Assembly: GCF_022775115.1 (NCBI RefSeq)
Contig: NZ_JALFLA010000018.1
Location: 1-40,870, forward strand
Origin: Agathobaculum sp.
Lineage (GTDB): Bacteria; Bacillota; Clostridia; Oscillospirales; Butyricicoccaceae
Direction of reading: 5' to 3'
DNA: 40,870 nucleotides
The translations under genes and the position numbers were made by a program. The notes beneath the pieces are model-generated. The model ran no database searches, was not told where the DNA came from, and was given only the letters and a program-made list of their open reading frames with translations. This document shows, piece by piece, positions 10,663-25,024 of this stretch (position 1 is its first letter; the number at the start of each line of letters is the position of its first letter).

Positions 10663-11644
10663 TAAAAAGGTGCTCGCCGCTGCCCGCCGCGCGCTCGAGC
10701 GCGACCGCGCCGCCCACGCCGAGCAGCTCGAGGCGCGCCGCCGCGATGTGTATGCGCGCGCACCGCGCATCCGCGCGATCGACCGCAGCCTTTCGTCGAC
10801 CGCTGCCGCCGTGCTCAAGGCGGCGATGGAGTCGGGCGGTGACCCGACCGCCGCGATCGAGCGGCTGCGCGACCAAAACCTGGCTCTGCAAGCCGAGCGC
10901 GCGGCGCTGCTCGGGCAACTCGGCCTGCCGGAGGACTACCTGACCGACCGGCCGCTGTGCGCGAAATGCGGGGACACCGGCTACGACGGCGGCGCGGTGT
11001 GCAGCTGTGTCAAGGCGCGCTATGCAAAGCTGCTCAAGGAGCAGCTTTCGGCCATGCTGCCGGTGCGCGACCAGAATTTCGACGCATTCCGGCTGGACTA
11101 TTATCCTGACCGGCGGGACGCCCGCTTGGGGGACTCGCCGCGCGAGCTGATGGCCGACCATTTGTTCGAGTGCAAGGAATACGCCAAGCGGTTTGGGGCG
11201 GACGCGCCCAATCTGCTGTTTTACGGCTCGACCGGACTGGGCAAGACCTTTCTGTCCGCCTGCATCGCGGAAACGGTGTCGGGGCGCGGCTTTTCGGTCG
11301 CATATGATACGGCGATCAACATCGTCGCCTCGTATGAGACGATCAAGTTCGGCAGCGGGGACGGCGAGGCCGCGGCCGAACGCATCGCGCGCTACGAGCG
11401 CGCCGACCTGCTCATCATCGACGATATGGGCACCGAGATGGGCACGGCGTTCACGGTGTCTGCGCTGTATAATCTCATCAACATCCGCCTGATGGCAAAG
11501 CGCCCGATGATCGTCAACACCAACCTGCTGCCCGAAGCGCTGGCCGATAAGTATTCGCCCGCCGTTGCCTCGCGCTTGCGGGGTGAGTTTCAGGCGATGC
11601 AGTTCGTCGGTGAGGATATCCGCCTGAAGAAAAAAGGGATGTAA
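10652..11644 (+). CDS. DnaI/DnaC-like helicase loader ATPase
   Basis: A 330-residue AAA+ ATPase of the DnaC/DnaI/IstB group. The N-terminal third is a charged helical region, then a Cys-containing module (LCAKCGDTGYDGG, then CSC, about 107-122) typical of DnaI-type loaders. Walker A is GSTGLGKTF (about 191-199) and Walker B LLIIDDMGTE (about 253-262). The last segment includes the arginine-finger region ASRLRGEF. It is translated from an ATG inside the end of the dnaD-like gene, with GGAGG 11 bases upstream. The family loads the replicative helicase. A transposon IstB is excluded by the DnaD neighbour and the Cys module. Confidence 0.88.
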   Translation: MAYDKKVLAAARRALERDRAAHAEQLEARRRDVYARAPRIRAIDRSLSSTAAAVLKAAMESGGDPTAAIERLRDQNLALQAERAALLGQLGLPEDYLTDRPLCAKCGDTGYDGGAVCSCVKARYAKLLKEQLSAMLPVRDQNFDAFRLDYYPDRRDARLGDSPRELMADHLFECKEYAKRFGADAPNLLFYGSTGLGKTFLSACIAETVSGRGFSVAYDTAINIVASYETIKFGSGDGEAAAERIARYERADLLIIDDMGTEMGTAFTVSALYNLINIRLMAKRPMIVNTNLLPEALADKYSPAVASRLRGEFQAMQFVGEDIRLKKKGM

Positions 11645-11683
11645 AGCGAACACCTGGCTTTGGGGCGCAGCCTAAACAATTCT

Positions 11684-11737
11684 TTCACAAGCTGTTCAAA
11701 GATCGTTCACACATCGCGGCCGGACACGCGGTATACT
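11684..11737 (+). promoter_or_regulatory. sRNA-A promoter with three TTCA half-sites
   Basis: TTCACA (11684), TTCAAA (11695) and TTCACA (11706) are direct repeats exactly 11 bp apart. The last ends 20 bp before the -10 TATACT (11732-11737). There is no normal -35. The geometry is typical of OmpR-family response regulator activation and is identical to the htrA promoter at 23507. Confidence 0.75.
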
Positions 11738-11743
11738 GAATGC

Positions 11744-11870
11744 GTCGGCAAGGGAAGCCGCAAGCCCACGCCGGCAGCCTACCGATCTCTTATTTCTCTT
11801 TTACCCTTTTTACTTGTGAACCGACGGAAAAGACCTGCTTTCCTTCCCCCATGGAATGCGGGTCTTTTCC
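11744..11870 (+). ncRNA. tandem small RNA, copy A
   Basis: A predicted RNA of about 127 nt. A 5' hairpin (GTCGGC...GCCGGC) encloses AAGGGAAGCCGCAAGCCC. A pyrimidine-rich single strand follows (11785-11810). The 3' terminator stem is GGAAAAGACCTG/CGGGTCTTTTCC. With the inner TCC/GGA pairing, the loop is TTCCCCCAT. The loop matches those of copies B and C although the stem sequence does not. No credible ORF lies inside. The C-rich loop could pair with Shine-Dalgarno sequences, as in RsaE- and FsrA-type sRNAs. Confidence 0.6.
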
Positions 11871-11899
11871 CATACGGCAAAGAAGTTCGTCAAAAAAGA

Positions 11900-11953
11900 T
11901 TCATAAGTTATTCAAAAGTTGTTCATATATTGTGCGCTGCGATGCGCTATACT
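11900..11953 (+). promoter_or_regulatory. sRNA-B promoter with three TTCA half-sites
   Basis: TTCATA (11900), TTCAAA (11911) and TTCATA (11922) lie 11 bp apart, then 20 bp to TATACT (11948-11953). Same geometry as copies A and C and htrA. Confidence 0.75.
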
Positions 11954-11959
11954 GATAAC

Positions 11960-12103
11960 GCCAAGGAGGAACCGCTCTCCTCTAAAAGCACAGTTTGGAT
12001 ACACCTTTTTTCCCCCTTTCTTTCTTTTTCAACTCCTTTTTGCCCTCCGCAGGAGGGGAAGGGCGTCCGTCTCTGTTTCCCCCACAGAGACGGGCGTTTT
12101 TTT
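11960..12103 (+). ncRNA. tandem small RNA, copy B
   Basis: A predicted RNA of about 144 nt. The 5' hairpin is different from A and C (AGGAG/CTCCT around AACCGCT). A long C/T-rich stretch follows (about 12005-12045). The terminator stem CGTCCGTCTCTG/CAGAGACGGGCG has the loop TTTCCCCCA and ends in seven T. It is the most typical intrinsic terminator of the three. Most divergent copy, but promoter layout and loop are conserved. Confidence 0.6.
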
Positions 12104-12149
12104 ACTTTGTCGTGTGCGTAGGAGAAGCGGGGCGGCGGGAAACAAAACC

Positions 12150-12203
12150 TTCACAGCATGTTAAAAGTCTATTCACACATTGCCCGCGGCCGGGCGGTAT
12201 ACT
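12150..12203 (+). promoter_or_regulatory. sRNA-C promoter with three TTCA-like half-sites
   Basis: TTCACA (12150), TTAAAA (12161) and TTCACA (12172) lie 11 bp apart, then 20 bp to TATACT (12198-12203). Confidence 0.72.
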
Positions 12204-12209
12204 GGAATA

Positions 12210-12350
12210 CGTCAGCAAGGGAAGCCGCAAACCCGGGCTGACGGCCTACCGATCTTTTATTTCTCTTTTTTACCCCTTTCTTTCTAATTTTATGTAGTAA
12301 CCGGCAAAGAGCCGTTGTCTCGTTTCCCCCACGAGGCAACGGCTCTTTGC
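12210..12350 (+). ncRNA. tandem small RNA, copy C
   Basis: A predicted RNA of about 141 nt. The 5' hairpin GTCAGC/GCTGAC keeps the loop AAGGGAAGCCGCAAACCC of copy A, with a compensatory base-pair change in the stem. The same CCTACCGATCT and TTATTTCTCTTTT segments follow. The terminator stem GCAAAGAGCCGTTGTCTCG pairs across the loop TTTCCCCCA. No long T run follows, but CTCTTTGC forms the 3' arm. The 3' end lies 20 bases from the convergent sodC stop codon. Confidence 0.6.
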
Positions 12351-12369
12351 ATTGGCCTTACCGGGCGGC

Positions 12370-12861
12370 TTACTGCTCGGACGGCGTGATGACCCCGCAG
12401 GCCATCTTGCCGTTGGCGTTGCCGGACGGCTGGGTGGTGAAGTCATCCAGCTTTTCGTGCAGGATGACCGTGCGCCCGAGCACGTCGCGCACGCGGAAGC
12501 GGTCGGTCAGCACGGCCATCCACGCCGTGCCCGCCCGCGTGGCGAACAGCGGCGGCAGGTCGCCCGCGTGGTATGGATGCTGGCAGCCGCCGGGGTTGTA
12601 GTGCGCGCCCGCACCGGCGAAGCGGTCGGCGGCGTTGCCTGTGCAGCTGCGCCCCTCGTGGATGTGTAGGGCGAAGATCGGCTGCGCGCAGGCCATGCGT
12701 GTAACGGGCAGGCCGCGCATGGCCGCGGTGATCAGCACGCCCTGCTGCGTTTGGTAAAAGGACACCGTTCCCTCGGCGCGCTCGCCGCGCACCACGGCGG
12801 CTGCGTCGGGCCGGCGGTTGGTGATGATGGATGCAAAAAATTGAGAATTGTTCAGTGTCAT
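12370..12861 (-). CDS. sodC: Cu/Zn superoxide dismutase
   Basis: A 163-residue SodC-family protein that dismutates superoxide. Metal ligands are all visible: H66 and H68 (HIHEG), bridging H87 (GAHYNP), H95, H98 and D101 (HPYHAGD), and H135 (ILHEKLDDF). The disulfide cysteines C73 and C155 (MACGVI) are present. There is no signal peptide, so it should be cytosolic, unusual compared with periplasmic or lipoprotein SodC of Gram-negatives. GGAGG is seven bases before the ATG on the minus strand. It is a single gene converging on the sRNA array and divergent from mrp. Confidence 0.92.
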   Translation of the reverse strand: MTLNNSQFFASIITNRRPDAAAVVRGERAEGTVSFYQTQQGVLITAAMRGLPVTRMACAQPIFALHIHEGRSCTGNAADRFAGAGAHYNPGGCQHPYHAGDLPPLFATRAGTAWMAVLTDRFRVRDVLGRTVILHEKLDDFTTQPSGNANGKMACGVITPSEQ

Positions 12862-12904
12862 GATTGATACCTCCGTAAATCAGCCTATGCGCCGCCGATT
12901 GCTC

Positions 12905-12988
12905 TTGCGAAAGCCGTGCAGATGCGCTATACTGAAATCCAAGGCGGCGCTGGCCGCTCCGATGGGGGCGGCAGGCACGGCCGCCTTG
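12905..12988 (+). promoter_or_regulatory. mrp promoter and structured 5' leader
   Basis: TTGCGA (12905-12910), 17-bp spacer, TATACT (12928-12933). The transcript begins at about 12940, where a perfect 9-bp stem CAAGGCGGC/GCCGCCTTG (12940-12948 with 12980-12988) encloses a second GCCGC/GCGGC hairpin. No terminator follows and the gene starts 41 bases later. It could be a regulatory leader or an mRNA-stabilising hairpin. Confidence 0.5.
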
Positions 12989-13029
12989 TGTTTGGATATT
13001 TCTTATAGATAGCAAGGAGTTGTTTTAAT

Positions 13030-13848
13030 ATGGGTTGCTCGCATAATTGCAGTTCGTGCTCAGCCGGCTGCGGCAGCGAAAAGAGCCTGAAGGTGGCTGC
13101 CAATCCCGCTGCAAAAATAAAGAAGGTCATCGGCGTCGTATCCGGCAAGGGCGGCGTGGGCAAAAGCCTGCTGACCTCGATGATGGCCGTCGGTCTGACC
13201 CGCAAGGGCTACACCTGCGGCATTCTGGACGCCGATATCACCGGCCCGTCCATCCCTAAGGCCTTCGGCGTGCATGACCAGCTGGAGGGCTGCGAGGAGG
13301 GCATCCTGCCCGCGCGCAGCGAGGGCGGTGTGCAGATGATCTCGATCAATCTGGTGCTCAAAAATCCGGACGACCCGGTCATTTACCGCGGGCCGATCAT
13401 CGCGGAGACTGTCAAGCAGTTCTGGGCGGACGTGGTATGGGACGATGTGGACTACCTGTTCATCGACATGCCGCCCGGCACGGGCGACGTGCCGCTGACG
13501 GTGTTCCAGTCCCTGCCGGTGGACGGCATTCTGGTTGTCACCTCGCCGCAGGATCTGGTCTCGATGATCGTCGGTAAGGCGGTCAAGATGGCCAAGATGA
13601 TGGATGTGCCGGTCGTCGGCATCGTGGAAAATTACAGCTACTTTGAATGCCCGGACTGCGGCAAGCAGGTCGCGCTTTTTGGGCAGAGCAAGGCGGACGA
13701 GGTCGCCGCGCAGTACGAGCTGCCCGTGCTGGCAAAGCTGCCGATCGACCCCGCGCTGGCCGCGGCGGTGGACGCGGGCAAGATCGAGGACGTTAAGCTG
13801 CCCGCGCCGCTCTCAGGCGCGCTGGCGGCGGTTGAGGAGCTGCGATGA
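13030..13848 (+). CDS. mrp: Mrp/NBP35 family Fe-S carrier ATPase
   Basis: A 272-residue P-loop ATPase of the Mrp/NBP35/ApbC group, which carries and inserts iron-sulfur clusters. An N-terminal cysteine cluster (C3, C7, C10, C14) resembles the NBP35 ferredoxin-like motif. The deviant Walker A SGKGGVGKS spans 38-46, then the DADITGPS switch region and MPPGTGD. The C-terminal CPDC supplies the bridging-cluster cysteines. GCAAGGAG precedes the ATG. The stop overlaps the next ATG by four bases, so the NifX-like gene is coupled. Confidence 0.92.
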   Translation: MGCSHNCSSCSAGCGSEKSLKVAANPAAKIKKVIGVVSGKGGVGKSLLTSMMAVGLTRKGYTCGILDADITGPSIPKAFGVHDQLEGCEEGILPARSEGGVQMISINLVLKNPDDPVIYRGPIIAETVKQFWADVVWDDVDYLFIDMPPGTGDVPLTVFQSLPVDGILVVTSPQDLVSMIVGKAVKMAKMMDVPVVGIVENYSYFECPDCGKQVALFGQSKADEVAAQYELPVLAKLPIDPALAAAVDAGKIEDVKLPAPLSGALAAVEELR

Positions 13849-14279
13849 ACATCGGCGTGGCCTATGACAATGGGCAAATAGCGGAAAATCTGGGTGCGTG
13901 CCGCAGCTTTCTGATTGTGACGGCCGAGGGCGGCGCGCCGACCGCCAAGCGCATCGCCCCGGTGGCGGGCACGGCCGTGACCGATATGGTCAAAACGGTC
14001 AGTATGGAGCAGATCGACGTGCTCATCTGCGGCGGGCTGGGTCTTGCCGTGCGCAACGCGCTCGAGCTGATCGGCGTGCTGCTCGTGCCTGGCTGCACGG
14101 GCGCGGCCGAGGAGGCCGTTGCCAAGTTCCTTGTGGGTGAGCAGCAGGGCGACCCGGCGCTGCTGGCGATCGGGCGCGAGGATGACCCGGACGACCCGAT
14201 GGCCTGTATGCACGACTGCGCGAAGTGCGCGGGCTGCGGGCCGATCGAGATATTGCGGCAGATGCCGCAAGCCGATTGA
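13845..14279 (+). CDS. NifX/NifB-C-terminal-like cofactor-binding protein
   Basis: A 144-residue protein with the dinitrogenase iron-molybdenum cofactor-binding fold (NifX/NifY family, about residues 1-105), starting MNIGVAYDNGQIAENLG. A cysteine-rich tail follows (CMHDCAKCAGC, about 125-135) that could hold an Fe-S cluster. There are no nitrogenase genes here. In anaerobes such proteins are commonly paired with Mrp-type ATPases, as here (ATGA overlap), suggesting Fe-S cluster handling. The exact client is unknown. Confidence 0.8.
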   Translation: MNIGVAYDNGQIAENLGACRSFLIVTAEGGAPTAKRIAPVAGTAVTDMVKTVSMEQIDVLICGGLGLAVRNALELIGVLLVPGCTGAAEEAVAKFLVGEQQGDPALLAIGREDDPDDPMACMHDCAKCAGCGPIEILRQMPQAD

Positions 14280-14318
14280 CCGCCCCGCCGTGGGCGTCGG
14301 CAGGAGAGGAGGAGGCTG

Positions 14319-14810
14319 ATGTTTCGTCAGCTGAGAAGAAGCCGGCAGGCGCTGCCGGCTGAGGCGTGCGAGGAGATTTTGGCGCGCGGCACGTCCGGTG
14401 TGCTGGCCGTGTCGGGGGATGAAGGCTATCCCTATGCTGTGCCGCTCAATTATGTATACAGCGGCGGCAGGCTGTATTTTCACTGCGCCAAGAGCGGCCA
14501 TAAGCTGGATGCGCTCGCGCGCAGCGACAAGGCTTCGTTCTGCGTGATCGACCAGGATCAGATCGTGCCGGAGGAGTATACCTCCTATTTCCGCAGCGTG
14601 ATCGCCTTTGGCCGGGTGCGCGTGATCGAGGATGCGCAGCAAAAGCGCGCGGCGATCGAGGCGCTCGCCATACGGTTTTCGCCGGATGACAGCGCGCAAA
14701 ACCGAAGCGACGTGATCGAGCGGGACTGGGCGCCGCTGTGTATGCTGGAGATGGAGATCGAGCATCTGAGCGGCAAGCAGGCCAAGGAGCTGGCGCGGGC
14801 GGGGCAATAG
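14319..14810 (+). CDS. pyridoxamine 5'-phosphate oxidase-like flavoprotein
   Basis: A 163-residue protein of the FMN-binding split-barrel (PNPOx-like, NimA-related) family. The N-terminal block GTSGVLAVSGDEGYPYAVPL and then YFHCAKSGHKLDAL are typical of 5-nitroimidazole reductase-like proteins. GAGGAGG lies before the ATG. The family reduces nitro compounds or binds flavin or heme; which applies here cannot be told. It follows mrp and the NifX-like gene and may share their transcript. Confidence 0.82.
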   Translation: MFRQLRRSRQALPAEACEEILARGTSGVLAVSGDEGYPYAVPLNYVYSGGRLYFHCAKSGHKLDALARSDKASFCVIDQDQIVPEEYTSYFRSVIAFGRVRVIEDAQQKRAAIEALAIRFSPDDSAQNRSDVIERDWAPLCMLEMEIEHLSGKQAKELARAGQ

Positions 14811-15018
14811 CGCGCCGTCTGTTCCCGGCGGGATGGGAGAAGGGCTGTCCGCCCCAGCGGGCGGCTCTTTTGTCATGCAAGGGCGAAAGCACCGCGCGAA
14901 ACGCGCGAAATTTATCAAAAATGCTGATGCAATTTGGCGCACGGTGTTGTATAATGAATCTATAACCGAAAAACAGGGGGCGCCTTGTCCCCGCGAACGG
15001 ATGGGAAGGACTGCTGCA

Positions 15019-16266
15019 ATGAGCAATATTACTGCCGCCCTGATCGGCGGCCTGTTTGACCAAAACGGTGTTTCCGCTTACGCGCGCCCGGTGCTGTTCG
15101 GCACAGCGGGAGACGCGGTCAAGGGGCTGCTGCCCGCCGCGGTGGATGCCTGCTTTTTTGTGCATGACGGGCGTGAAGATGCGCCGGCCGGCGCGGAGAG
15201 CATCGCGCTGGCGGAGGAGGGACGCTTTGCCGCGCTGCGGGCGCTGCCGGAATGCGCGCAGGTGCTGGTCATTGCCGCGCCGCTGGCGCTGACCGAGCCG
15301 GACGCGCTCACGCACTTGACCGAGACGCACACAGTCACCGGCTTTGGCGTCAGCGTGCTGACCGCCGGGCGGCAGGGCTTTGACGAGGACGGACAGCCTA
15401 TCCCGCGTGACGAGCGCTGCCTTGCCGCCATCTTTACCTATGACGCGCTGCAAAGGGCGCTCCAAAGCGGGGCGGACACGCTCGACCGGCTGGTCGGGGC
15501 GGCGGTCGAGGCGGGCGCGCAAAAGGGCGTGTCTGTCACTGATGAGATCGTCGAGATCCGCGACGGCGCTTCGGCCTATCTGGCGCAGCTGCTGCTGGTG
15601 CAGCGCGTCAATTTTACGCTGATCGAAAAGGGCGTGCAGCTCTTTGACCCTGCGGGCACCTATATCGCGCCCGACGCGGATATCGCCCCCGGCGCGGTCA
15701 TCCTGCCGGGCTGCCACATCCGCCCCGGCTGCAAGGTCGGCGCGGGAGCCGTCATCGGCCCGCACAGCATTTTGGACAAAGCCGTGATCGGCGCGGGAAC
15801 GACGGTCAACCACTCGCAGGTATACGAATCCACCGTGGGGGACAATGCCACGGTCGGCCCCTTTGCCTATATCCGCCCGCAGTGCGTGGTGGGTGACGGC
15901 TGCCGCGTCGGTGATTTCGTCGAGCTGAAGAAGTCGACCATCGGCAACGGCACCAAGGTATCCCACCTGACCTATATCGGAGACGCGACCGTCGGCGAGC
16001 GGGTCAACTTCGGCTGCGGCACGGTCGTGGTCAACTACGACGGCTATACCAAGAGCCAGACCGTCATTGGGGACGATTGCTTTATCGGCTGCAACACCAA
16101 CCTTGTCGCGCCGGTCACGCTGGGCGACCGCGTCTTTACTGCGGCCGGTACGACCGTCACCCGGAATGTGCCGGACGGGGCGCTGGCCGTGGCGCGTGCG
16201 CGGCAGAGCACACTTGAGGGCTGGAACGACAAGCGCCGCAGGGCGCACGGTCAGGACAACGGGTGA
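15019..16266 (+). CDS. GlmU-like protein with degenerate uridylyltransferase domain
   Basis: A 415-residue protein, shorter than the usual ~450-460. The C-terminal left-handed beta-helix (about 213-415) is a typical GlmU glucosamine-1-phosphate acetyltransferase, with catalytic His316 in VSHLTYIGD, NYDG (339-342) and LVAPVTLGD. The N-terminal part (1-200) is in the position of the UDP-GlcNAc pyrophosphorylase domain. It lacks the LxxGxGTRMxS nucleotide-binding loop and the other recognisable substrate motifs. It is probably inactive for uridylyl transfer. ATG 15019 follows GGGAAGGA; TATAAT lies at 14950-14955. It sits directly before prs, the classic glmU-prs order, so it is the genomic glmU position. 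Confidence 0.8.
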   Translation: MSNITAALIGGLFDQNGVSAYARPVLFGTAGDAVKGLLPAAVDACFFVHDGREDAPAGAESIALAEEGRFAALRALPECAQVLVIAAPLALTEPDALTHLTETHTVTGFGVSVLTAGRQGFDEDGQPIPRDERCLAAIFTYDALQRALQSGADTLDRLVGAAVEAGAQKGVSVTDEIVEIRDGASAYLAQLLLVQRVNFTLIEKGVQLFDPAGTYIAPDADIAPGAVILPGCHIRPGCKVGAGAVIGPHSILDKAVIGAGTTVNHSQVYESTVGDNATVGPFAYIRPQCVVGDGCRVGDFVELKKSTIGNGTKVSHLTYIGDATVGERVNFGCGTVVVNYDGYTKSQTVIGDDCFIGCNTNLVAPVTLGDRVFTAAGTTVTRNVPDGALAVARARQSTLEGWNDKRRRAHGQDNG

Positions 16267-16390
16267 CCGATATCGTTTTTTGAGAGGATAAGGCAGCGCC
16301 GCGGCACACGGCAAAGAGCGGTTTGCGGGAAAAATTTCGCGCTGATAAGACGCGGTTTGGCGGTAATACTGGATATATCGCGGGAAAACG

Positions 16391-16478
16391 CGGCGAGAGC
16401 GGGGCGTGAAGGTCACGCAGAGTGCCGAAGGTGCGATCGTGCGGCGATGCTTTAGGAGAGAAAACGCAAAAAGGACAC
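16391..16478 (+). other. possible structured leader upstream of prs
   Basis: In the 240-bp gap before prs, GCGTGA-AGG-TCACGC (16404-16418) forms a perfect hairpin. It is followed by GTGCCGAAGGTGCGA and later CTTTAGG and AAAAAGGACA. The order loosely recalls a single glycine-riboswitch aptamer, but the flanking P1 stem is poor. A -10-like TAATAC lies at 16364-16369. It is kept as an unexplained structured leader only. Confidence 0.2.
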
Positions 16479-16506
16479 ATAATAAAAGTACGGAGGGGCA
16501 AATCGC

Positions 16507-17466
16507 ATGATTTCTCACGGTAAAAACATTAAGATCCTGTCCGGTAATTCTCACCCGGCGCTCGCCATGCAGATCGCGTCGGCGCTCGGCCTGTCGCTCG
16601 GCAAGGCTGCGATCTCAAGCTTTGCAGACGGTGAGATATCGGTCTCCATCTCGGAGTCGGTGCGCGGCTCGGACGTGTTTCTGGTCCAGTCGACCTGCGA
16701 CCCGGTCAATAACAACCTGATGGAGCTGCTCATCATGATCGACTCCTGCAAGCGTGCCTCGGCCGGACGCATCACGGCGGTCATCCCGTATTTCGGCTAT
16801 GCGCGGCAGGACCGCAAGAGCAAGGCGCGCGACCCGATCTCGGCAAAGCTGGTGGCTAACCTGATTACCGCCGCGGGCGCGGACCGCGTGCTGACCATGG
16901 ATCTGCACGCCGCCCAGATACAGGGCTTCTTTGATATCCCGGTGGACAATATGCTCGGCTCTTCGGTGCTGATACCGTATATCGCGGGCAAGTTCGGCGT
17001 CGGCACGGAGGATACCGTCATCGTCTCGCCCGACCTTGGCTCGGTCACCCGTGCGCGCAAGTTCACCGAAAAGCTCGATATGCCGCTTGCCATCATCGAC
17101 AAGCGCCGTCCCAAGGCCAATGTGTCCGAGGTGATGAACATCATCGGCAACGTGCAGGGTAAAAAATGCATTCTGGTCGATGACCTGATCGACACCGCCG
17201 GCACGCTGGTGCACGCGGCCGACGCGCTGGTCGAAAAGGGCGGCGCGACCGAGGTCTACGCCTGCGCGACGCACGGCGTGCTCTCCGGCCCTGCGATCGA
17301 GCGCATCCAGAACAGCCCGATCCGCGAGCTGGCCATTCTGGACACCATCGCGCTGCCGCATGAAAAGAAGATCGACAAGATCAAGGTGCTGTCGGTCGCG
17401 CCGGTGCTGACCGAGGCGATCGCACGCATCTATGAGGAAGTATCGGTGTCGACCTTGTTCGACTGA
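16507..17466 (+). CDS. prs: ribose-phosphate pyrophosphokinase
   Basis: A 319-residue class I PRPP synthetase, making PRPP from ribose 5-phosphate and ATP for nucleotide, His and Trp synthesis. Family signatures are FADGEISVSISESVRG near 40-55, YFGYARQDRK (about 98-107), TMDLHAAQIQGFF (about 135-147) and the PRPP loop VDDLIDTAGT (about 223-232). ATG 16507 follows CGGAGGGG. It is downstream of the GlmU-like gene and ends in its own terminator. Confidence 0.96.
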   Translation: MISHGKNIKILSGNSHPALAMQIASALGLSLGKAAISSFADGEISVSISESVRGSDVFLVQSTCDPVNNNLMELLIMIDSCKRASAGRITAVIPYFGYARQDRKSKARDPISAKLVANLITAAGADRVLTMDLHAAQIQGFFDIPVDNMLGSSVLIPYIAGKFGVGTEDTVIVSPDLGSVTRARKFTEKLDMPLAIIDKRRPKANVSEVMNIIGNVQGKKCILVDDLIDTAGTLVHAADALVEKGGATEVYACATHGVLSGPAIERIQNSPIRELAILDTIALPHEKKIDKIKVLSVAPVLTEAIARIYEEVSVSTLFD

Positions 17467-17471
17467 AAGCT

Positions 17472-17499
17472 GAGGGGCTGCCGCGGGCAGCCCCTCTTT
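17472..17499 (+). terminator. terminator after prs
   Basis: A perfect 11-bp stem GAGGGGCTGCC/GGCAGCCCCTC with a GCG loop, then TTT. Confidence 0.75.
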
Positions 17500-17516
17500 C
17501 GGAAGGAGGGTATGAT

Positions 17517-18299
17517 ATGAAGATATTGGCAGTCGGAGACGTGGTCGGCGAGGCCGGGCTGGATACGCTCGATGCGCTGCTGCGCAAGGTAAAGCGCGCC
17601 CACGGCGTGGATTTCGTCGTGGTAAACGGCGAGAACGCCGCGCGCGTCGGGCTGATGCCGGGGCAGGCGGACAGTATGCTGGCCGCGGGCGCGGACGTCA
17701 TCACGCTGGGCAACCACACGTTCAACAAGCGGCAGATCGTCCCCTATCTGGACGACAATCCGTTCATCCTGCGCCCGGCCAACTACGCGCCGCAGACGCC
17801 GGGGCGCGGCGCAGCCGTGTATGAGGGCGCGCAGGGGCTGCGCATCCTCGTGTTCAACCTGATCGGCCGGTGCGACATGCCCTTTGGGCCGGACAACCCC
17901 TTTCTCTGCGCCGACCGGGTGCTGCGTGAGCACGCAGGGCAATACGATATCGCGCTGTGCGATTTCCACGCCAATGCCACGAGCGAGAAAATGGCCATGG
18001 GCTATTATCTCGACGGCCGCGTCGCCTGCATTTGGGGCACGCATACCCATGTGCAGACGGCGGATGAGCGCATAAACCCCAAAGGCTCGGGTTATATCAC
18101 TGATATCGGTATGACCGGGCCGATCGTCTCGGTGCTCGGCGTGTGCCCGGAGCAGTCTATCGCCATGTTTCGGGGCGACCTGACCGATTATTTCAAGACC
18201 GCCCCCGGTGATTGCGCGCTGTCCGGCGCGGTGTTTGAGGTTGCGCGCGGCGGCGTCTGCCGGTCGGTCACCCGCGTGTGGGAGCGGTATCAGCGGTGA
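17517..18299 (+). CDS. ymdB: YmdB-family metallophosphoesterase
   Basis: A 260-residue calcineurin-like phosphodiesterase of the YmdB (TIGR00282) family. Metal-binding motifs are GDVVGEAG (7-14), NGENAA (about 38-43), LGNHTFN (about 63-69), DFHANATSEK (about 147-156) and GTHTHVQTAD (about 175-184). In B. subtilis YmdB hydrolyses cyclic nucleotides and affects biofilm, motility and sporulation decisions. GGAAGGAGGG precedes the ATG. A terminator separates it from prs. Confidence 0.93.
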   Translation: MKILAVGDVVGEAGLDTLDALLRKVKRAHGVDFVVVNGENAARVGLMPGQADSMLAAGADVITLGNHTFNKRQIVPYLDDNPFILRPANYAPQTPGRGAAVYEGAQGLRILVFNLIGRCDMPFGPDNPFLCADRVLREHAGQYDIALCDFHANATSEKMAMGYYLDGRVACIWGTHTHVQTADERINPKGSGYITDIGMTGPIVSVLGVCPEQSIAMFRGDLTDYFKTAPGDCALSGAVFEVARGGVCRSVTRVWERYQR

Positions 18300-18344
18300 G
18301 CACCGCCTGTGCGGTGTACACTTGTCCGCCAGACGGAAACACAC

Positions 18345-18364
18345 GAAAAAGCGGCGTCGCTTTT
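18345..18364 (+). terminator. terminator after ymdB
   Basis: AAAAGCG-GCGT-CGCTTTT, with A and T tracts closing the stem. Confidence 0.55.
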
Positions 18365-18415
18365 GTGCATTCTGCGGGAAGTTGGGATATCGGCCGGCAA
18401 AGCGCGAAAAACCGA

Positions 18416-18445
18416 TTGACGGCAGAGCCGGTTTTGTTGTATGCT
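18416..18445 (+). promoter_or_regulatory. promoter of the DUF4914-like gene
   Basis: TTGACG (18416-18421), 18-bp spacer, TATGCT (18440-18445), about 110 bases before the start codon. Confidence 0.6.
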
Positions 18446-18557
18446 AAGAATGAATTACAATGGGTCTTGCTGTGAAAGAGAGAAATGGCGGGCCTGTGTA
18501 TGACGCGCCGCCCCGCGCCGACAGGCGTATACGCGGTGCGAAGGGAGGATGATATAG

Positions 18558-20423
18558 ATGAACTCATTGCTGGACAAATTTACCTTTGACCCGGAGCTGC
18601 TCGATGTGATCTCCAACTGCCGGGCGGTCTGGGTGCCCACGACCAAGGCCGAGCTTTATGAGATGTGCTTTGGTGGTGACCGCCGCTTTAACGTTGTATA
18701 CGATGTGCCCGGCAGAGGGCCGGTCAAGGAGTGCGATGTGACGCGCTGCAAGAACGGCGCGGCCATCAACTATGTGGAGGACTATATGCGCCGCCGCGAC
18801 CCTGACTGTATGCGCATCGCCGACGACGGACCGACCGACAAGCCGCGCTTTCAGGATGTGTACGGCTATCCCTTTGACAAGCTGCGTAAGGAGACCATGG
18901 AGTGGTTCAAAACGCAGGAGCTGATCTTCATGCCCTTCAATTCGGGCGGCAATGAATACGGCTACCCGTCCATGCTGGTCTGCCCGAAGAACGCCGCGTT
19001 CTTTGCGTTTGCGCTGGCGCATTTGCAGGGCTTTATCTCGGCTTCGGAGTGCGAGGGCTTCCGGCCGCGCGCGTTCGTCTATGTTGCGCCGCCGTTCCGG
19101 CATTCCCACTTTGAAGGCAGGCAGGTCTGCGTGCACAACCGCATGGAGCACTGCCACGAGGTATTTTCGTATAACCTGTATCCCGGCCCCTCGGCCAAGA
19201 AGGGCGTATACTCCATCCTGCTCGACATCGGCGAGCGGGAGGGCTGGGTGACCGCGCACGCCTCCTGCGGCCGCATCGTAACGCCGTATGAGAACGAGCT
19301 GGTCATCATGCACGAGGGCGCCTCGGGCGGCGGCAAGAGCGAAATGCTGCAGGATATCGCCCGGCTGGAGGACGACAGCGTGCTGCTCTCGACCAACACC
19401 GTCACCGGTGAGGAGACCGTGCTCAACATGGGCACCACCTGCCGCATCGAGCCGGTGTGCGACGATATGGCCACCTGCTATCCCGCGCTGCAAAACGGCA
19501 GCGGCAAGCTGGTGCTGGTGGACGGCGAGGCCGGTTGGTTCCTCCGCATGGACGGTGTGACCCACTATGGCTGCGACCCGGTCTACGAGCGCATCTGCAC
19601 CGAGCCGGACGAGCCGCTCTGCTTCTTCAATATGGAGGCGCACCGCGGCGCGACCTGTCTGATCTGGGAGCATACGCTCGATTCCAACGGACAACCCTGC
19701 CCCAATCCGCGCGCCATCGTGCCGCGCGACAAGGTGCCGCGTATCGTCACCGAGCCGGTCGAGGTAGACGTGCGCACCTTCGGTGTGCGTATGCCCCCGT
19801 CGACGGCGGAAAACCCGAACTACGGCATCATGGGCATGATGCACGTCATCCCGCCCGCGCTGGCATGGCTGTGGCGCTTGGTCGCGCCGCGCGGCTTTAA
19901 GAACCCGTCCATCGTTGGCGGCGGCGAGCTGAAGAGCGAGGGCGTCGGCTCGTACTGGCCCTTTGCCACCGGTCTGCGCGTCAAGCAGGCCAATCTGCTG
20001 CTCAAGCAGATTTTGAGCTGCCCGAACACCCGCTATGTGCTCATCCCCAACCAGCACATCGGTGTTTACAAGGTCGGCTTTGCGGCGGAGTGGATCACCC
20101 GCGAGTATCTGGCGCGCCGCAACGGCCGCGTCAAGCGCGAGGGCCTTGAGCCTGCGCGCTGCCCGCTGCTCGGCTACGCGCTCAAGGAAATGAAGGTCGA
20201 TGGACAGAAGATCCGCTCCAAGTACCTGCGCCCGGAGCTACAGGATCGCATGGGCGAGGCGGGCTACGATGCCGGCGCCAAGATTTTGGTCGACTTCTTT
20301 GCCAAGGAGCTGAAAAAGTTCGATACGCCCGAGCTTGACCCGGTCGGCAAGCAGATTATCGACTGCTTCATGAAGGGCGGTACGATCGAGGACTACGAGG
20401 CGATCACGCCGACCCACTTTTAA
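18558..20423 (+). CDS. DUF4914-type PEPCK-like P-loop protein
   Basis: A 621-residue protein that I recognise, with moderate certainty, as the DUF4914 family. The P-loop HEGASGGGKSEMLQD (about 251-265) resembles the kinase loops of PEP carboxykinase and HPr kinase. The rest is long and well conserved in character, rich in Cys/Trp/Tyr, with no membrane segment. The activity of the family is not known to me; a nucleotide-dependent phosphotransfer or carboxykinase-like reaction is plausible. GGGAGGA precedes the ATG, with a good promoter upstream. It is monocistronic, closed by a bidirectional terminator shared with trmO. Confidence 0.65.
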   Translation: MNSLLDKFTFDPELLDVISNCRAVWVPTTKAELYEMCFGGDRRFNVVYDVPGRGPVKECDVTRCKNGAAINYVEDYMRRRDPDCMRIADDGPTDKPRFQDVYGYPFDKLRKETMEWFKTQELIFMPFNSGGNEYGYPSMLVCPKNAAFFAFALAHLQGFISASECEGFRPRAFVYVAPPFRHSHFEGRQVCVHNRMEHCHEVFSYNLYPGPSAKKGVYSILLDIGEREGWVTAHASCGRIVTPYENELVIMHEGASGGGKSEMLQDIARLEDDSVLLSTNTVTGEETVLNMGTTCRIEPVCDDMATCYPALQNGSGKLVLVDGEAGWFLRMDGVTHYGCDPVYERICTEPDEPLCFFNMEAHRGATCLIWEHTLDSNGQPCPNPRAIVPRDKVPRIVTEPVEVDVRTFGVRMPPSTAENPNYGIMGMMHVIPPALAWLWRLVAPRGFKNPSIVGGGELKSEGVGSYWPFATGLRVKQANLLLKQILSCPNTRYVLIPNQHIGVYKVGFAAEWITREYLARRNGRVKREGLEPARCPLLGYALKEMKVDGQKIRSKYLRPELQDRMGEAGYDAGAKILVDFFAKELKKFDTPELDPVGKQIIDCFMKGGTIEDYEAITPTHF

Positions 20424-20441
20424 GCGGCAATGTAAAAATGG

Positions 20442-20478
20442 AAAACGTCCCCAAGCAGGCTGCTTGGGGACGTTTTTT
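20442..20478. terminator. bidirectional terminator between the DUF4914-like gene and trmO
   Basis: A perfect 16-bp stem (AAAACGTCCCCAAGCA with its complement) and a GGC loop, followed by T residues on both strands. Confidence 0.85.
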
Positions 20479-20490
20479 CGCATGGCCGCG

Positions 20491-21180
20491 TTAGTCTATT
20501 GGCTCAATGGCGACAACGGTCAGCGTGTCGCTGTCGACGGTGAAGCGCACCTCAAAGCCCGCGAAGGGGAAGCCGTACACGCGGCCGGGCAGGTGCTGAT
20601 AACCGGGGCGGGGATCGTGGGCGAGAACAGCGCGCAGCGCCTCCTGCCGGTCGGCGGGCAGCCGGGCAAGCAGCGGGGCGGGGCAGCACACCCGCAGCAC
20701 ACCCTTCCGGCTTTGCAGGGCGAAGCCGCCCGCGGCCTCCGGGTGCGCGTCGGTGTAGGCGAGGTAGGGCTTGATGTCCAGAATGGGCGTGCCGTCCATC
20801 AGGTCAGCGCCCGAGATGTGGAGCACCGGGCCGTCGGGCGTTTGCAGCGCGGCGCGGTCAAGGCGGACGGACGACAGCCCGATCGCGTTCGGCCGAAAGG
20901 GTGAGCGCGTGGCAAACACGCCGACACGCCGGTTGCCGCCCAGCTTGGGCGGCCGCACGGTGGGCGACCAGTCCGCGCGCACGGCCTCGGAAAACTGCCA
21001 GATCAGCCAGAGGTGGCTGAACGCCTCGATGCCGCGCAGCGCGTCGGCGCTGCGGTAGGGCGGCTCGAAGACGATGCGGGCAGGGGTGTCGGCCAGTCCG
21101 CTCTGGCGGGGAATGCCGAATTTGGTGGGAAAATCGCTGCGGATGCGCGCGATGATATGCATGGGGATGGTATCTGACAT
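20491..21180 (-). CDS. trmO: tRNA (t6A37)-methyltransferase TrmO
   Basis: A 229-residue TrmO/YaeB/TsaA-like protein, which methylates N6-threonylcarbamoyladenosine at position 37 of tRNA using SAM. The signature FATRSPFRPNAIGLSSV (about 89-105) and the later ADLMDGTPILDIKPYLAYTD block are diagnostic. An extra C-terminal domain (about 155-229) is present, as in many bacterial members. AAAGGAC lies before the ATG on the minus strand. It is divergent from the two-component system. Confidence 0.92.
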   Translation of the reverse strand: MSDTIPMHIIARIRSDFPTKFGIPRQSGLADTPARIVFEPPYRSADALRGIEAFSHLWLIWQFSEAVRADWSPTVRPPKLGGNRRVGVFATRSPFRPNAIGLSSVRLDRAALQTPDGPVLHISGADLMDGTPILDIKPYLAYTDAHPEAAGGFALQSRKGVLRVCCPAPLLARLPADRQEALRAVLAHDPRPGYQHLPGRVYGFPFAGFEVRFTVDSDTLTVVAIEPID

Positions 21181-21258
21181 GGAAAACGTCCTTTGCAGTT
21201 GATGGTATCAGTATAACATGCCCGCGCGGCGCGCGCAATGGAGGGCAATACCGTGCCT

Positions 21259-21301
21259 TTTACAAATCGTTAATGCTTTTTTTCGTGTGCGGCGGTATAA
21301 T
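21259..21301 (+). promoter_or_regulatory. two-component operon promoter with two TTNA-type half-sites
   Basis: TTTACA (21259) and TTAATG (21270) lie 11 bp apart; the second ends 20 bp before TATAAT (21296-21301). The layout equals that of the htrA and sRNA promoters, although with only two and weaker half-sites. It suggests autoregulation by the response regulator it drives. Confidence 0.5.
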
Positions 21302-21336
21302 AAACTTGATATAACTGGAAAGCAGGGGGAGAACAT

Positions 21337-22017
21337 ATGACAAAAAAGATACTGATCGTCGAGGATGAAGCCAATATCCGTGAGCTGCTGCGCTTGTACC
21401 TTGAGCGGGAGGGCTATACCGTGGTCGAGGCCGAAAACGGCGTCGAGGGCATCAAGCTATGGAAAACCGAAAAGCCGGATATGCTGCTGCTGGACGTGAT
21501 GATGCCCGTGATGGACGGCTGGGCGGTCTGCAAGGAGATCCGTCAGAGCAGCGACGTGCCTATCATCATGCTGACCGCCAAGGGCGAGACGGCTGACCGT
21601 GTATCCGGCCTGGAAATGGGCGCGGATGATTATATCGTAAAGCCGCTGGAAATGCCCGAGGTCATCGCCCGCGTGCGCGCGGTGTTCCGCCGCATCGCGC
21701 CGGACGATCAGCCGGAGAAGATCGCGTTTGACAACCTCATCATTGACAAGCAGGCCTATGATCTGGTCATCAAGGGCAAGCGCGTGGACGCGCCGCCCAA
21801 GGAGATCGAGCTGCTGTACTATCTCGCCTCCAGCCCCAACCGCGTGTTTACGCGCGCGCAGCTGCTCGACGATGTGTGGGGCTTTGACTATTTCGGTGAT
21901 ACCCGCACGGTGGATGTGCATGTCAAGCGTCTGCGTGAAAAGCTCGAGGGCGTGTCCGACAAGTGGGAGCTGAAGACGGTCTGGGGCGTCGGCTACAAGT
22001 TTGAGACCAAGGAGTAG
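21337..22017 (+). CDS. OmpR-family response regulator, CssR-like by context
   Basis: A 226-residue response regulator. The receiver domain (about 3-118) has acidic pocket E9/D10, phospho-acceptor D53 (LLDVMMP), the Thr-Ala-Lys near 81-83 and the conserved VKP. The C-terminal winged helix (about 130-225) ends in the OmpR-type RTVDVHVKRLREKL...VWGVGYKF block. The kinase gene starts four bases later and an HtrA protease follows, the same gene content as the B. subtilis CssRS-HtrA secretion-stress system. Its likely binding site is TTCAnA repeated at 11 bp. The Shine-Dalgarno region GGGGGA (21325-21330) is complementary to the conserved loop of the three sRNAs. A PhoP or WalR identity is possible but fits less well. 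Confidence 0.88.
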   Translation: MTKKILIVEDEANIRELLRLYLEREGYTVVEAENGVEGIKLWKTEKPDMLLLDVMMPVMDGWAVCKEIRQSSDVPIIMLTAKGETADRVSGLEMGADDYIVKPLEMPEVIARVRAVFRRIAPDDQPEKIAFDNLIIDKQAYDLVIKGKRVDAPPKEIELLYYLASSPNRVFTRAQLLDDVWGFDYFGDTRTVDVHVKRLREKLEGVSDKWELKTVWGVGYKFETKE

Positions 22018-22020
22018 GCC

Positions 22021-23475
22021 ATGGGCAGACACAGCTTTTTCTTCAAAAACTATGTCTCGCATGTCGTGCTGATCGTGCTGGCATTTGCGATCGCGGGCAG
22101 CATGTTTTATTACCAGATGGGCAGCTACGCGCTCAAAACCAAGCAGGATGAGCTGCATACGACGGTCAAAAGTCTGGCCGAGCAGACCAAGCTGATGCAG
22201 CAGAGCGATTCGCAGGATTTTCTGGACTTTTACATGCTGTCGGTCGCGCGGATTGCCAAGGAGGATGAGATCACCGTGCTCGTCACCGACGAGCAGGGCG
22301 TGGTCACGCTGATCGCAGGGACGGACGGGCGCGCGGTGCTGTCGCCGGGCTATTTTATTGCGCCCGCCGCGGCGCAGCAGATACGCACCACCGGCAGCTA
22401 TGCCGCAGTGGGCACGATGGGCGTGTTCACCGAGGCGTCGACCTATGCGGTCGGCACGGGCGTGACCGACGAGAACGGCCAGCTCACCGGCATGGTGTTC
22501 GTCTCCACCAAGGACACTTCGGTCGCCGGGATGATCCGCCACTCGACGCAAACGCTCGTGCTCATCCTGCTGGCCACGCTGACGGTGGCGCTGCTGCTCT
22601 CGTTCATGATTTCGCAGCACATGACCCGGCCGCTCGGCGTGATCGCCGCGGCAGCCAAGGAGTTCGCGGCGGGCAATTTTGAGGTGCGCGTGCCCGAGGA
22701 TAACCACTGCTACGAGATCGACGAGCTGGCCGTCTCGTTCAACAACATGGCGCGTGACCTTGACCAGCTCGAGGAGCTGACGCGCGGCTTCATCTCCAAC
22801 GTCAGTCATGAGTTCAAAACGCCGATGACCACCATCGGCGGCTTTGTGGACGGAATGATCGACGGTACCATCCCGCCCGAGCAGTATGATAAATACCTGC
22901 ACATCATCGCCGAGGAGACCCGCCGTTTGTCGCGCATGGTGGGGCGTATGCTGGATGCGGCGAAAATTCAGTCGGGCGAGCTGCTGCTCTCGCCCGCGCC
23001 GTTTGACTTTACCGAAATGACGAGCCAAATCATCCTGTCGTTTGAGCAGAAGATCGAAAGGAAGGGGCTTGCGGTCGAGTGCGAGCTGACCGACCGCCTG
23101 ATGGTCATGGGCGACCGAGACCACCTTTACCGCGCGGTGTACAATCTGGTGGACAACGCGGTCAAATTTGTCGACGCTGGCGGCAAGCTGACGCTGCACG
23201 CCTATCCGGATGGGGATTTTTGCAGATTTTCCATCCGCAACACGGGTGCGGGCATCTCGGACGAGGACCTGCCGCATGTGTTCGACCGCTTTTACAAGGC
23301 GGATAAATCGCGCTCGATGGACAAAACAGGCGCGGGACTGGGGCTGTATATCGTCAAAAATATCATCAATCTGCACGGCGGCGAGATATCGGTCTGCTCC
23401 CACGATAGGGAAACCAAGTTCGCCTTCACCCTGCCGCTCGCGCCGCCGCAGCTGCCGGGCACCAAGGCGACGTGA
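22021..23475 (+). CDS. sensor histidine kinase, CssS-like by context
   Basis: A 484-residue membrane kinase. The first membrane helix is about 11-32, an extracytoplasmic sensor domain spans about 33-176, and the second helix is about 177-198. HAMP follows (about 199-252), then HisKA with His263 in SHEFKTP. The catalytic ATPase domain has N-box NLVDNA (375-380), NTGAGI (407-412) and TGAGLGL (436-442). It lies four bases after the response regulator and is therefore its partner. The sensor is the size expected for an extracytoplasmic signal such as misfolded secreted protein. The signal itself cannot be read from sequence. Confidence 0.9.
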   Translation: MGRHSFFFKNYVSHVVLIVLAFAIAGSMFYYQMGSYALKTKQDELHTTVKSLAEQTKLMQQSDSQDFLDFYMLSVARIAKEDEITVLVTDEQGVVTLIAGTDGRAVLSPGYFIAPAAAQQIRTTGSYAAVGTMGVFTEASTYAVGTGVTDENGQLTGMVFVSTKDTSVAGMIRHSTQTLVLILLATLTVALLLSFMISQHMTRPLGVIAAAAKEFAAGNFEVRVPEDNHCYEIDELAVSFNNMARDLDQLEELTRGFISNVSHEFKTPMTTIGGFVDGMIDGTIPPEQYDKYLHIIAEETRRLSRMVGRMLDAAKIQSGELLLSPAPFDFTEMTSQIILSFEQKIERKGLAVECELTDRLMVMGDRDHLYRAVYNLVDNAVKFVDAGGKLTLHAYPDGDFCRFSIRNTGAGISDEDLPHVFDRFYKADKSRSMDKTGAGLGLYIVKNIINLHGGEISVCSHDRETKFAFTLPLAPPQLPGTKAT

Positions 23476-23506
23476 CCATCCCGTCCGCTGGCGCACGGGC
23501 GCAAAG

Positions 23507-23560
23507 TTCAGAAAACGTTCACATTGTCTTCAACAAAACGCCACACAGCGGCTCTAGAAT
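23507..23560 (+). promoter_or_regulatory. htrA promoter with three TTCA half-sites
   Basis: TTCAGA (23507), TTCACA (23518) and TTCAAC (23529) lie exactly 11 bp apart, then 20 bp to TAGAAT (23555-23560). It has no conventional -35. In B. subtilis, htrA and htrB are CssR targets with repeated TTTTCACA octamers, which this resembles. Confidence 0.75.
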
Positions 23561-23593: not shown

Positions 23594-25024
23594 ATGGATG
23601 ACTTTAACTATAATAACAAGAGCGGCGACTCCCCCTATCAGCAGGGCGGCGGCTATCACCAGCCGAGCCAGTGGCAGCAGGAACAGCCGTCCGCCGCACA
23701 GCAGGGTGAGGAACCCCGCACCCCCTATCAAACGCCCGTGCAGCACCCGGAATACCGTTCCGCACCCTATGGGCAGCAGCCTTACGGCAGCGGGCAGATG
23801 CCCGGCGGCGCACCGCATACGCCGCCGCAGCCGCCCAAAAAGCGCGGCCACGGCGCGGTGATTGCACTGTGCAGCGTGGCGGCGGCCTGCCTGTTGTTTG
23901 CGGGCGGCGCAGTGCTCGGCTATTTTGTCACCGGCGCGGACGGCCAGCCCGGCGACACGCAGGCGGACGCGGGCAAGTCCGGTCTGCCCACCGTGCAGAT
24001 TACCGAGCGCCCGGTCTACGACCCGGATAACTACGATGTGGTAAACGGCCTTGCGGGTGAGGAGATCTACAAAAAGGTCAGCCCCTCGATCGTCTCGGTC
24101 GTGTCGAACGCGGGCAGTGGCTCAGGCGTTATCATGAGTGAGGACGGCTATATCATCACAAACAATCACGTCGTTGAGGACGCACAGCAGGTTGCTGTCA
24201 TGCTCAGCGACGGCACGCAGCTGCCGGCGGAGATCGTCGGCCTGGACGAGCAGACCGACCTTGCCGTGCTCCGCGCCACAACGATCACCAAGCTGACCGC
24301 CGCCGAGTTTGGTGATTCCGATCAGCTGCAGCCCGGTGAGTACGCATATGCGATCGGCTCGCCCGGCGGCGTGGAGCTGGCCAATACCATCACGGGTGGG
24401 CGTATCTCGGCCATCAACCGCGATATCACGATCAGCGACCGCGTGATGAGCCTGATTCAGACCGATGCGTCGATCAACCCCGGTAACTCGGGTGGCGCGC
24501 TCATCAACAAGTACGGGCAGGTCGTCGGCATCACGTCGGCCAAGATATCCGGCTCGAGCTTTGGCTCGGCGGCGTATGAGGGCTTGGGCTTCGCCATCCC
24601 GATGAACACAGCCAAGACGATCGTCGACGAGCTGATTGCAAACGGCTACATCGCCGGACGGCCGTCTATCGGTATCACCGGGCAGAACATCGACCAAGGT
24701 GTGTATATCCGCTGGATCGACCCGCGTGCGTATGCTGCAAGTGAGGGGCTGAAGGCCGGCGATATCATCACAGCGGTCAATGGTCAGCAAGTCTCGACGA
24801 TGAATGAGATCAACGCGATCAAGGAAGGCATGAAGGCGGGCGACAAGATCACACTGACTGTCTACCGCATGAGCGAGGGCAGAACGATCGACGTGACCGT
24901 TACGCTGACCGACGCGCACGACCTGTCGAGCGAGAACGGGAGCACCCAGCAGCAGCAAACGCCCCAGAACGGCAGCGGCGGCTATTACTATAACGACCCC
25001 TTCTCCTATTTCTTCCGCTGGTAA
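23594..25024 (+). CDS. htrA: HtrA/DegP-type trypsin-like serine protease with PDZ domain
   Basis: A 476-residue S1C protease. A long Gln/Pro/Tyr-rich cytoplasmic N-terminus (1-82) precedes one membrane helix (about 86-112), then the extracellular protease domain with catalytic triad H192 (NNHVV), D222 (TDLAVLR) and S299 (GNSGGAL). A single PDZ domain (about 350-445) and a Gln/Tyr-rich tail follow. The family degrades misfolded proteins at the cell surface. The start is after ACAGGAGG. It follows the two-component genes but has its own promoter with OmpR-type half-sites, and it ends in a strong terminator. Confidence 0.94.
   Translation: MDDFNYNNKSGDSPYQQGGGYHQPSQWQQEQPSAAQQGEEPRTPYQTPVQHPEYRSAPYGQQPYGSGQMPGGAPHTPPQPPKKRGHGAVIALCSVAAACLLFAGGAVLGYFVTGADGQPGDTQADAGKSGLPTVQITERPVYDPDNYDVVNGLAGEEIYKKVSPSIVSVVSNAGSGSGVIMSEDGYIITNNHVVEDAQQVAVMLSDGTQLPAEIVGLDEQTDLAVLRATTITKLTAAEFGDSDQLQPGEYAYAIGSPGGVELANTITGGRISAINRDITISDRVMSLIQTDASINPGNSGGALINKYGQVVGITSAKISGSSFGSAAYEGLGFAIPMNTAKTIVDELIANGYIAGRPSIGITGQNIDQGVYIRWIDPRAYAASEGLKAGDIITAVNGQQVSTMNEINAIKEGMKAGDKITLTVYRMSEGRTIDVTVTLTDAHDLSSENGSTQQQQTPQNGSGGYYYNDPFSYFFRW

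Follow-up and report, generated by a model that had tools for sequence, protein, structure and literature searches.

A putative OmpR-family regulon linking htrA and an array of CU-rich small RNAs through a shared promoter geometry in Agathobaculum

The DNA considered here is a stretch of 40,870 nucleotides from Agathobaculum sp. (contig NZ_JALFLA010000018.1 of assembly GCF_022775115.1), referred to below at its full length as the window, which carries a two-component system, a gene for an HtrA-type protease and an array of three predicted small RNA (sRNA) genes, all on the forward strand. The response regulator gene (21337..22017) encodes a presumed activator of the OmpR family (226 aa; Response_reg and Trans_reg_C domains) and is followed in a row by the genes for a sensor histidine kinase (22021..23475; 484 aa; HAMP, HisKA and HATPase_c) and an HtrA (DegP)-type serine protease (23594..25024; 476 aa; Trypsin_2 and PDZ). 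The sRNA array is found upstream at a distance of nine kilobases, flanked by an IstB/DnaA-ATPase-like gene (10652-11644) and the convergent sodC gene (12370-12861, minus strand). Each of its units has its own promoter, and a terminator-like inverted repeat is found at each of the three transcripts: sRNA1 (11738..11873; arms 11826-11843 and 11853-11870), sRNA2 (11954..12103; arms 12064-12076 and 12084-12096) and sRNA3 (12204..12353; arms 12304-12323 and 12331-12350). sRNA1, whose transcription is predicted to start near 11744, has a 5' hairpin and a CU-rich linker and is assigned with sRNA3 to one class (A); the two are 86% identical over 65 nt. sRNA2 is assigned to a second class (B), and its CU-rich linker contains CCCCC and CUCCUUUUU. 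A reading of sRNA3 as a leader or riboswitch was rejected because about 17 bases separate the end of this RNA from the sodC gene, which is convergent with it.

An earlier note on this DNA had proposed that four promoters, those of htrA and the three sRNAs, share one exact geometry, and its positions and spacings were confirmed on the sequence. The promoters of sRNA1 (11684..11737), sRNA2 (11900..11953), sRNA3 (12150..12203) and htrA (23507..23560), all on the forward strand, each contain three TTCAnA-like half-sites (11684-11711, 11900-11927, 12150-12177 and 23507-23534) in steps of 11 bp, the last of which ends exactly 20 bp before the -10 element. The -10 is TATACT at the three sRNA promoters (11732-11737, 11948-11953 and 12198-12203) and TAGAAT at the htrA promoter (23555-23560). 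Two of the sites are imperfect, with TTAAAA as the middle half-site before sRNA3 and TTCAAC as the last half-site before htrA. None of the four has a normal -35 element, and no TTGACA-like sequence was visible by eye 16-18 bp before their -10 elements. The promoter of the response regulator itself (21259..21301, forward strand) was also as the note had described it, with two half-sites (TTTACA and TTAATG, 21259-21275) separated by the same 11-bp step and 20 bp from a TATAAT element.

The specificity of this geometry was examined by scanning for TTCAnA-N5-TTCAnA-N5-TTCAnA-N20-TAnnnT, with the reversed pattern as the control. Exactly four sites in the 2.19-Mb draft genome had zero or one mismatch, and these were the sites at 11684, 11900, 12150 and 23507; under uniform bases, about 0.004 sites with at most one mismatch would be expected genome-wide. 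At up to three mismatches there were six matches (none at two mismatches, two at three) and one match to the reversed control. Within the window the four promoters were the four top matches when the -10 was counted, and an overlapping register at 11889, which has no -10, equals them on half-sites alone. Two TTCATA half-site-like repeats 11 bp apart, without a fitting -10, are also present near the contig end (106-142, minus strand).

Across the genus the geometry is conserved, including that of the sRNA1 promoter. A BLAST query with the sRNA region (11660-12380) found it in 25/25 genus genomes, the own genome included, and in 0/35 genomes of other genera. At up to two mismatches the pattern gave 125 sites, with at least one in each of the 25 genus genomes, and the reversed control gave two; together with the scan of the own genome this rules out a chance motif. 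It was possible to assign 120 of the 125 sites to sRNAs, htrA or one further noncoding RNA (ncRNA). Eighty stand directly before matches to the sRNA covariance model described below, 5 precede class-B sRNAs that the model missed, 23 precede htrA, and 12 precede the further ncRNA, which is found near a gyrase/topoisomerase gene; six of these 12 were read, and the others were assigned by likeness of the site. Of the 5 unexplained sites, one is an sRNA site in a shifted register. Conversely, 80 of the 84 model matches in the genus have a site directly upstream, and among the four that do not, one reaches a contig end and one has four mismatches. The htrA sites were assigned by distance in 21 of the 24 regulator-bearing genomes, where, on the same strand, a site follows the regulator start by 2.1-2.4 kb, which is the place of htrA. 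Two more were assigned by sequence, one at a relocated htrA that has kept its site (G022) and one before an htrA-like start (G010, by the start only). This gives 23 of 24 regulator-bearing genomes, or 24 when a weaker copy in G011 (TTAAAA, TTCATA, TACAAT) is counted. In the 83 distinct genus promoters the 20-bp gap is mostly of low information, though these sites were selected with that geometry.

The transcripts themselves are also conserved in structure. Enough sequence for classing was available at 83 of the 85 genus sites taken as sRNA promoters, and the 83 transcripts comprise 59 of class A and 24 of class B. Class A RNAs begin with a 5' hairpin that has an outer stem, a GGG/CCC inner stem and the loop AGCCGCAA, followed by a linker of strongly conserved sequence (CCUACCGAUCUUUUAUUUCUCUUUUACCCCCCUUU) and a terminator with, in most cases, the loop UUUCCCCC. 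Over 26 base pairs, 94.6% of cells were paired and 21 pairs changed on both sides. The covariation score was 0.493 compared to 0.244 in shuffles, with slid controls at or below 0.11, and 0/500 shuffles were as high on all five measures, a result that is not a probability because the aligned rows are related. The covariance model (R1) was built from 43 of the 59 class-A sRNAs after removal of those that were over 93% alike or had no recognisable terminator loop; it spans 144 positions and begins after the -10, so that it contains no promoter. R1 matches sRNA1 (11738-11873, E 8.8e-25) and sRNA3 (12205-12353, E 2.3e-28), both of which are members of its alignment, and partially matches sRNA2 (12015-12102, E 9.2e-4). 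A search of Rfam 15 found no match at gathering score in the window, and the 11 matches at E up to 5 in the interval 11600-12400 were all far below it.

Outside the genus, R1 allowed the promoters to be located independently of their own sequence. Matches at E <= 0.01 were found in 57/87 genomes and 9/15 genera of the family, which for the genus studied here we take to be Butyricicoccaceae; four genomes from three of these genera (g3, g7 and g11) had weak, promoterless matches only and were not counted, which leaves five genera besides the own. Over the order, with strict filters and E <= 1e-4, matches were found in 20/295 genomes and 5/148 genera, all Butyricicoccaceae. Fifty of the 51 non-genus matches were fetched, one at a contig end in G074 being left out, and 42/50 have a -10 matching at 5/6 or better together with a third half-site at 5/6 or better and a gap of exactly 20. 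The second half-site is also present in 40/50 and all three half-sites in 32/50. Among the 44 matches whose -10 is good, the half-site agreed with TTCACA at 5.6/6 on average when the gap was 20, and no other gap between 14 and 26 gave more than 2.8. The 11-bp step gave agreements of 4.3 and 3.8, compared to no more than 2.4 for any other step between 8 and 14. The htrA promoter geometry, with altered third half-sites (e.g. GACAAC), was found in Butyricicoccus pullicaecorum (L167) and at L166 and in G028, G032 and G033. A separate htrA promoter was seen in the genera that carry the sRNAs, and a weaker one is present in G034; at L171 (same family, G027), L193 and L229, htrA directly follows the kinase gene and there is no room for a promoter of its own.

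The regulator has the receiver and winged-helix domains of the OmpR/PhoB family (PF00072 at 117.4 bits and PF00486 at 95.1 bits, both above gathering), and at the sequence level its putative targets carry half-sites in direct repeats of about 11 bp before the -10, as is usual for this type of regulator. Direct repeats of 11 bp are typical of PhoB/MtrA/WalR-type regulators in particular. The regulator scores best with the NCBIfam models of PhoB, MtrA and YycF (241.8, 238.2 and 228.9 bits), yet these scores are below the curated cut-offs (296.2, 300 and 340), as are all of the best 25 matches, and its identification as PhoB, MtrA or WalR was rejected on that ground. It is 95% identical to its counterpart in Candidatus Agathobaculum stercoravium and 89% to that in Butyricicoccus sp. 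Marseille-Q5471, and it was found in 30/35 sampled genomes of other genera or families of the order (E <= 1e-65). The sequence of its recognition helix, TVDVH[VI]KRLREKL, hardly varies among 21 relatives (of 22 given). The regulator promoter also keeps its spacing across the order. A start-finding filter was passed by 39 of 110 regulator loci, 38 of which remained after removal of a near-identical one, and in 21 of these 38 upstream regions TTTACA (at most one mismatch) stands exactly 37 bp before the -10, compared to no more than 6 for any other distance between 24 and 49 and a shuffled mean of 1.2 per distance. This spacing is also kept in genomes where R1 has no match (e.g. G026, G030 and G038). 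It seems that an old autoregulatory operon acquired sRNA genes within one family.

Both within the genus and in further genera of its family, the geometry precedes htrA, the sRNAs and the regulator, and for this reason the proposal of the earlier note, that the four promoters belong to a regulon of the adjacent regulator which includes htrA and three sRNAs, can be regarded as well supported at the level of sequence. More generally, it is probable that an OmpR-family activator drives itself, htrA and several CU-rich sRNAs. A number of observations weigh against this view. Because the sets of 125 and 83 sites were collected by means of the pattern, selection accounts in part for their spacing, and the independent sets are those defined by BLAST and by the covariance model. 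The promoter is absent at 8 of the 50 non-genus R1 matches. In G024 (96% complete) there are two site-bearing sRNAs and no regulator at E <= 1e-60, and G079 has an sRNA and a regulator match of only 47% identity; both are draft assemblies, in which gaps are possible. In addition, eight more regulators of the OmpR type, all nearly full-length, are encoded in the own genome, and a preference for TTnACA may be common to related ones. The earlier note had named as refuting outcomes a pattern common at random or before unrelated genes and a spacing not kept in related species. Neither occurred in the genus or family; in the 295 genomes of the order that were scanned, however, a looser pattern matched 58/268 genomes outside the family (reversed control, 8), and these matches are unexplained.

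The further ncRNA lies at G000:C23:50507-50559 (L363) in the own genome and at L068-L072, L116, L130 and L366-L368 in relatives. It is conserved and structured with the core CUGUUCGGCCCUGUGGGACGGAAUACCGCGCAGGCUCCCGGACAG, and no Rfam match was found for L068 or L069. Its promoter is approximately TT[TA]ACA-N5-TTCAAA-N5-TACAAA-N20-TATnnT, weaker in some copies, and because this resembles the regulon sites the RNA may belong to the same regulon. Near the gyrase-side gene in two genomes of other genera, G028 (L119) and G032 (L123), there are sRNA-like units with a hairpin, a C-rich linker and similar promoter spacing. A near-identical promoter-like match (TAACAAAAAATTCACAACnnCTTAACT...TATACT) stands before an unknown gene in G042, G133 and G175, which represent one genus of another family.

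Comparable circuits are known from other bacteria, and CiaR, an OmpR-family regulator, controls one of them. CiaR of Streptococcus pneumoniae binds TTTAAG-N5-TTTAAG and controls 15 promoters, the five strongest of which drive csRNAs, and htrA expression depends on it (PMC3091779, PMC8186281, PMC4507080). The system described here resembles the CiaRH-csRNA circuit in that half-sites stand as direct repeats before the -10 with an 11-bp step and in that the sRNAs have a 5' hairpin, an unpaired linker and a terminator; to judge from promoter sites and RNA anatomy, one regulator may here, too, control htrA and several similar sRNAs. While the csRNA promoters are the strongest of the CiaR regulon, the sRNA -10 elements here are likewise nearer to consensus than that of htrA. 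However, the CiaR box has two TTTAAG half-sites and was searched for 10 bp from the -10 (PMC3091779), whereas here there are three half-sites close to TTCACA at 20 bp, and a comparison by eye of the CiaR recognition helix (VVEVYVSKVRKKL; PMC3091779) with that of the regulator here (TVDVHVKRLREKL) did not show agreement. With box, gap and helix all different, assignment to CiaRH was rejected. In Listeria, LisR controls LhrC1-5 and htrA (PMC5880928, PMC6305404), and LhrC pairs through CU-rich regions in loop A, a single-stranded stretch and the terminator loop (PMC5880928). The sRNAs here are also multicopy and have a CU-rich linker (UUUACCCCCC) and terminator loop (UUUCCCCC), but their 5' loop (AGCCGCAA) is not C/U-rich as loop A is, so that they do not have all three CU-rich regions. 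No Rfam family is matched by these RNAs, a further difference from LhrC and, at the level of Rfam, from the csRNAs. To our knowledge, no sRNAs belong to the CssRS regulon. In Bacillus this system regulates htrA and htrB (PMC12802291), and the CssR box TTTTCACA given in PMC6749698 resembles TTCACA. This octamer was matched at best at 7/8 positions (CTTTCACA at the first site), and repeated TTTTCACA boxes were not found before htrA, whose site (TTCAGA, TTCACA, TTCAAC) shares the TTCACA core only. The earlier note had called the regulon CssR-like; the likeness of the half-site holds, whereas the label is not established and the CiaRH and LisRK circuits are functionally closer.

In the mechanism proposed here, the phosphorylated regulator would bind head-to-tail to half-sites close to TTCACA every 11 bp, and, with the last half-site ending 20 bp before the -10, the bound activator would replace the missing -35 contact at RNA polymerase. 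In this way it would activate its own operon through two half-sites, htrA through three together with a weaker -10, and the array of three sRNA genes at 11738-12353 through three together with the strong TATACT -10. The sRNAs, ending in their own terminators, would then expose CU/C-rich stretches in the linker and terminator loop, and these would most likely base-pair with Shine-Dalgarno regions, thereby preventing envelope or secreted proteins from being translated at a time when HtrA removes those that are misfolded. The translation block is suggested by the anatomy of the RNAs and by analogy with csRNAs and LhrC. Since htrA is among the putative targets, the inducing signal may be envelope or secretion stress. 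A G-run before the start in the regulator leader (GCAGGGGGAGAACATATG, window 21300-21340) could pair with the C-rich loops of the sRNAs, a possible negative feedback.

The last step of this mechanism can be disputed, as the three RNAs, which are CU-rich and flanked by hairpins, could titrate a protein or serve as decoys rather than act in trans as repressors. The linker sequence is strongly conserved while the stems change, as might be expected of such RNAs, and specific pairing was not found. In a target test, translation starts paired with all six linker and loop queries better, by mean duplex energy, than did random 37-mers of the window, but shuffled queries were never beaten across 38 crude gene calls in the window, made by a greedy procedure that missed the regulator itself. 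Because the unshuffled queries never beat the shuffled ones, this test shows base composition only, and the failure to find target specificity counts against translation repression by pairing. Nevertheless, a titrator or decoy role seems rather unlikely given the anatomy of the RNAs, which is like that of the base-pairing LhrC, where the CU-rich loop, stretch and terminator loop bind target mRNAs (PMC5880928), and like that of the csRNAs with their unpaired anti-Shine-Dalgarno linker (PMC3091779).

It is less probable still that the sites are those of a different regulator of the OmpR/PhoB type, such as a PhoP-like one, with an incidental adjacency to the kinase-regulator pair and to htrA. Half-sites look alike across this family of regulators, and the own genome has 18 regulator-like matches, nine of them nearly full length with the adjacent regulator included. 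However, the promoter of the adjacent regulator shares the half-site, step and gap across genomes of the order, the helix that would read them is nearly invariant, and htrA stands beside the regulator gene. Furthermore, sRNA matches are carried by 28 non-genus genomes from five genera, and the regulator was present at 77-86% identity in 24 of the 25 of these that were searched, the exception being G079. That the repeated promoters are tandem duplication artefacts of one promoter-sRNA unit, without common regulation of htrA, is largely refuted already and hardly credible, for although duplication is clear in the case of sRNA1 and sRNA3, the unrelated transcripts of htrA, the regulator and the gyrase-side RNA are preceded by an identical or similar geometry, which is also kept in other genera with diverged RNAs.

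Among the papers listed in a literature search that covered few subscription journals, none describes such a system in Agathobaculum, Butyricicoccus or the Butyricicoccaceae, to judge by titles and the starts of abstracts. The circuit design is known from streptococci and Listeria, and here it appears with other RNAs and another switch layout. It is about as likely as not that this is a third, independently arisen case of a regulator with HtrA and multicopy CU-rich sRNAs, found in Clostridia. In this reading RNA makes up nearly all of the regulon (besides the regulator and htrA, two to five sRNAs and the gyrase/topoisomerase-side ncRNA), the promoters form a class with three half-sites and 11/11/20-bp spacing, and new sRNA genes joined a kinase-regulator-htrA operon that is ancient in the order and autoregulatory. 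If this is true, the combination of a quality-control protease with several redundant translation-blocking sRNAs under one envelope regulator arose at least three times in Gram-positive bacteria, and such recurrence with different RNAs and DNA boxes would be a testable case of convergent regulatory evolution. The apparent ancestral state, a regulator-kinase-htrA operon without sRNAs, persists in related genera, and the promoter signature would predict sRNAs in these gut bacteria.

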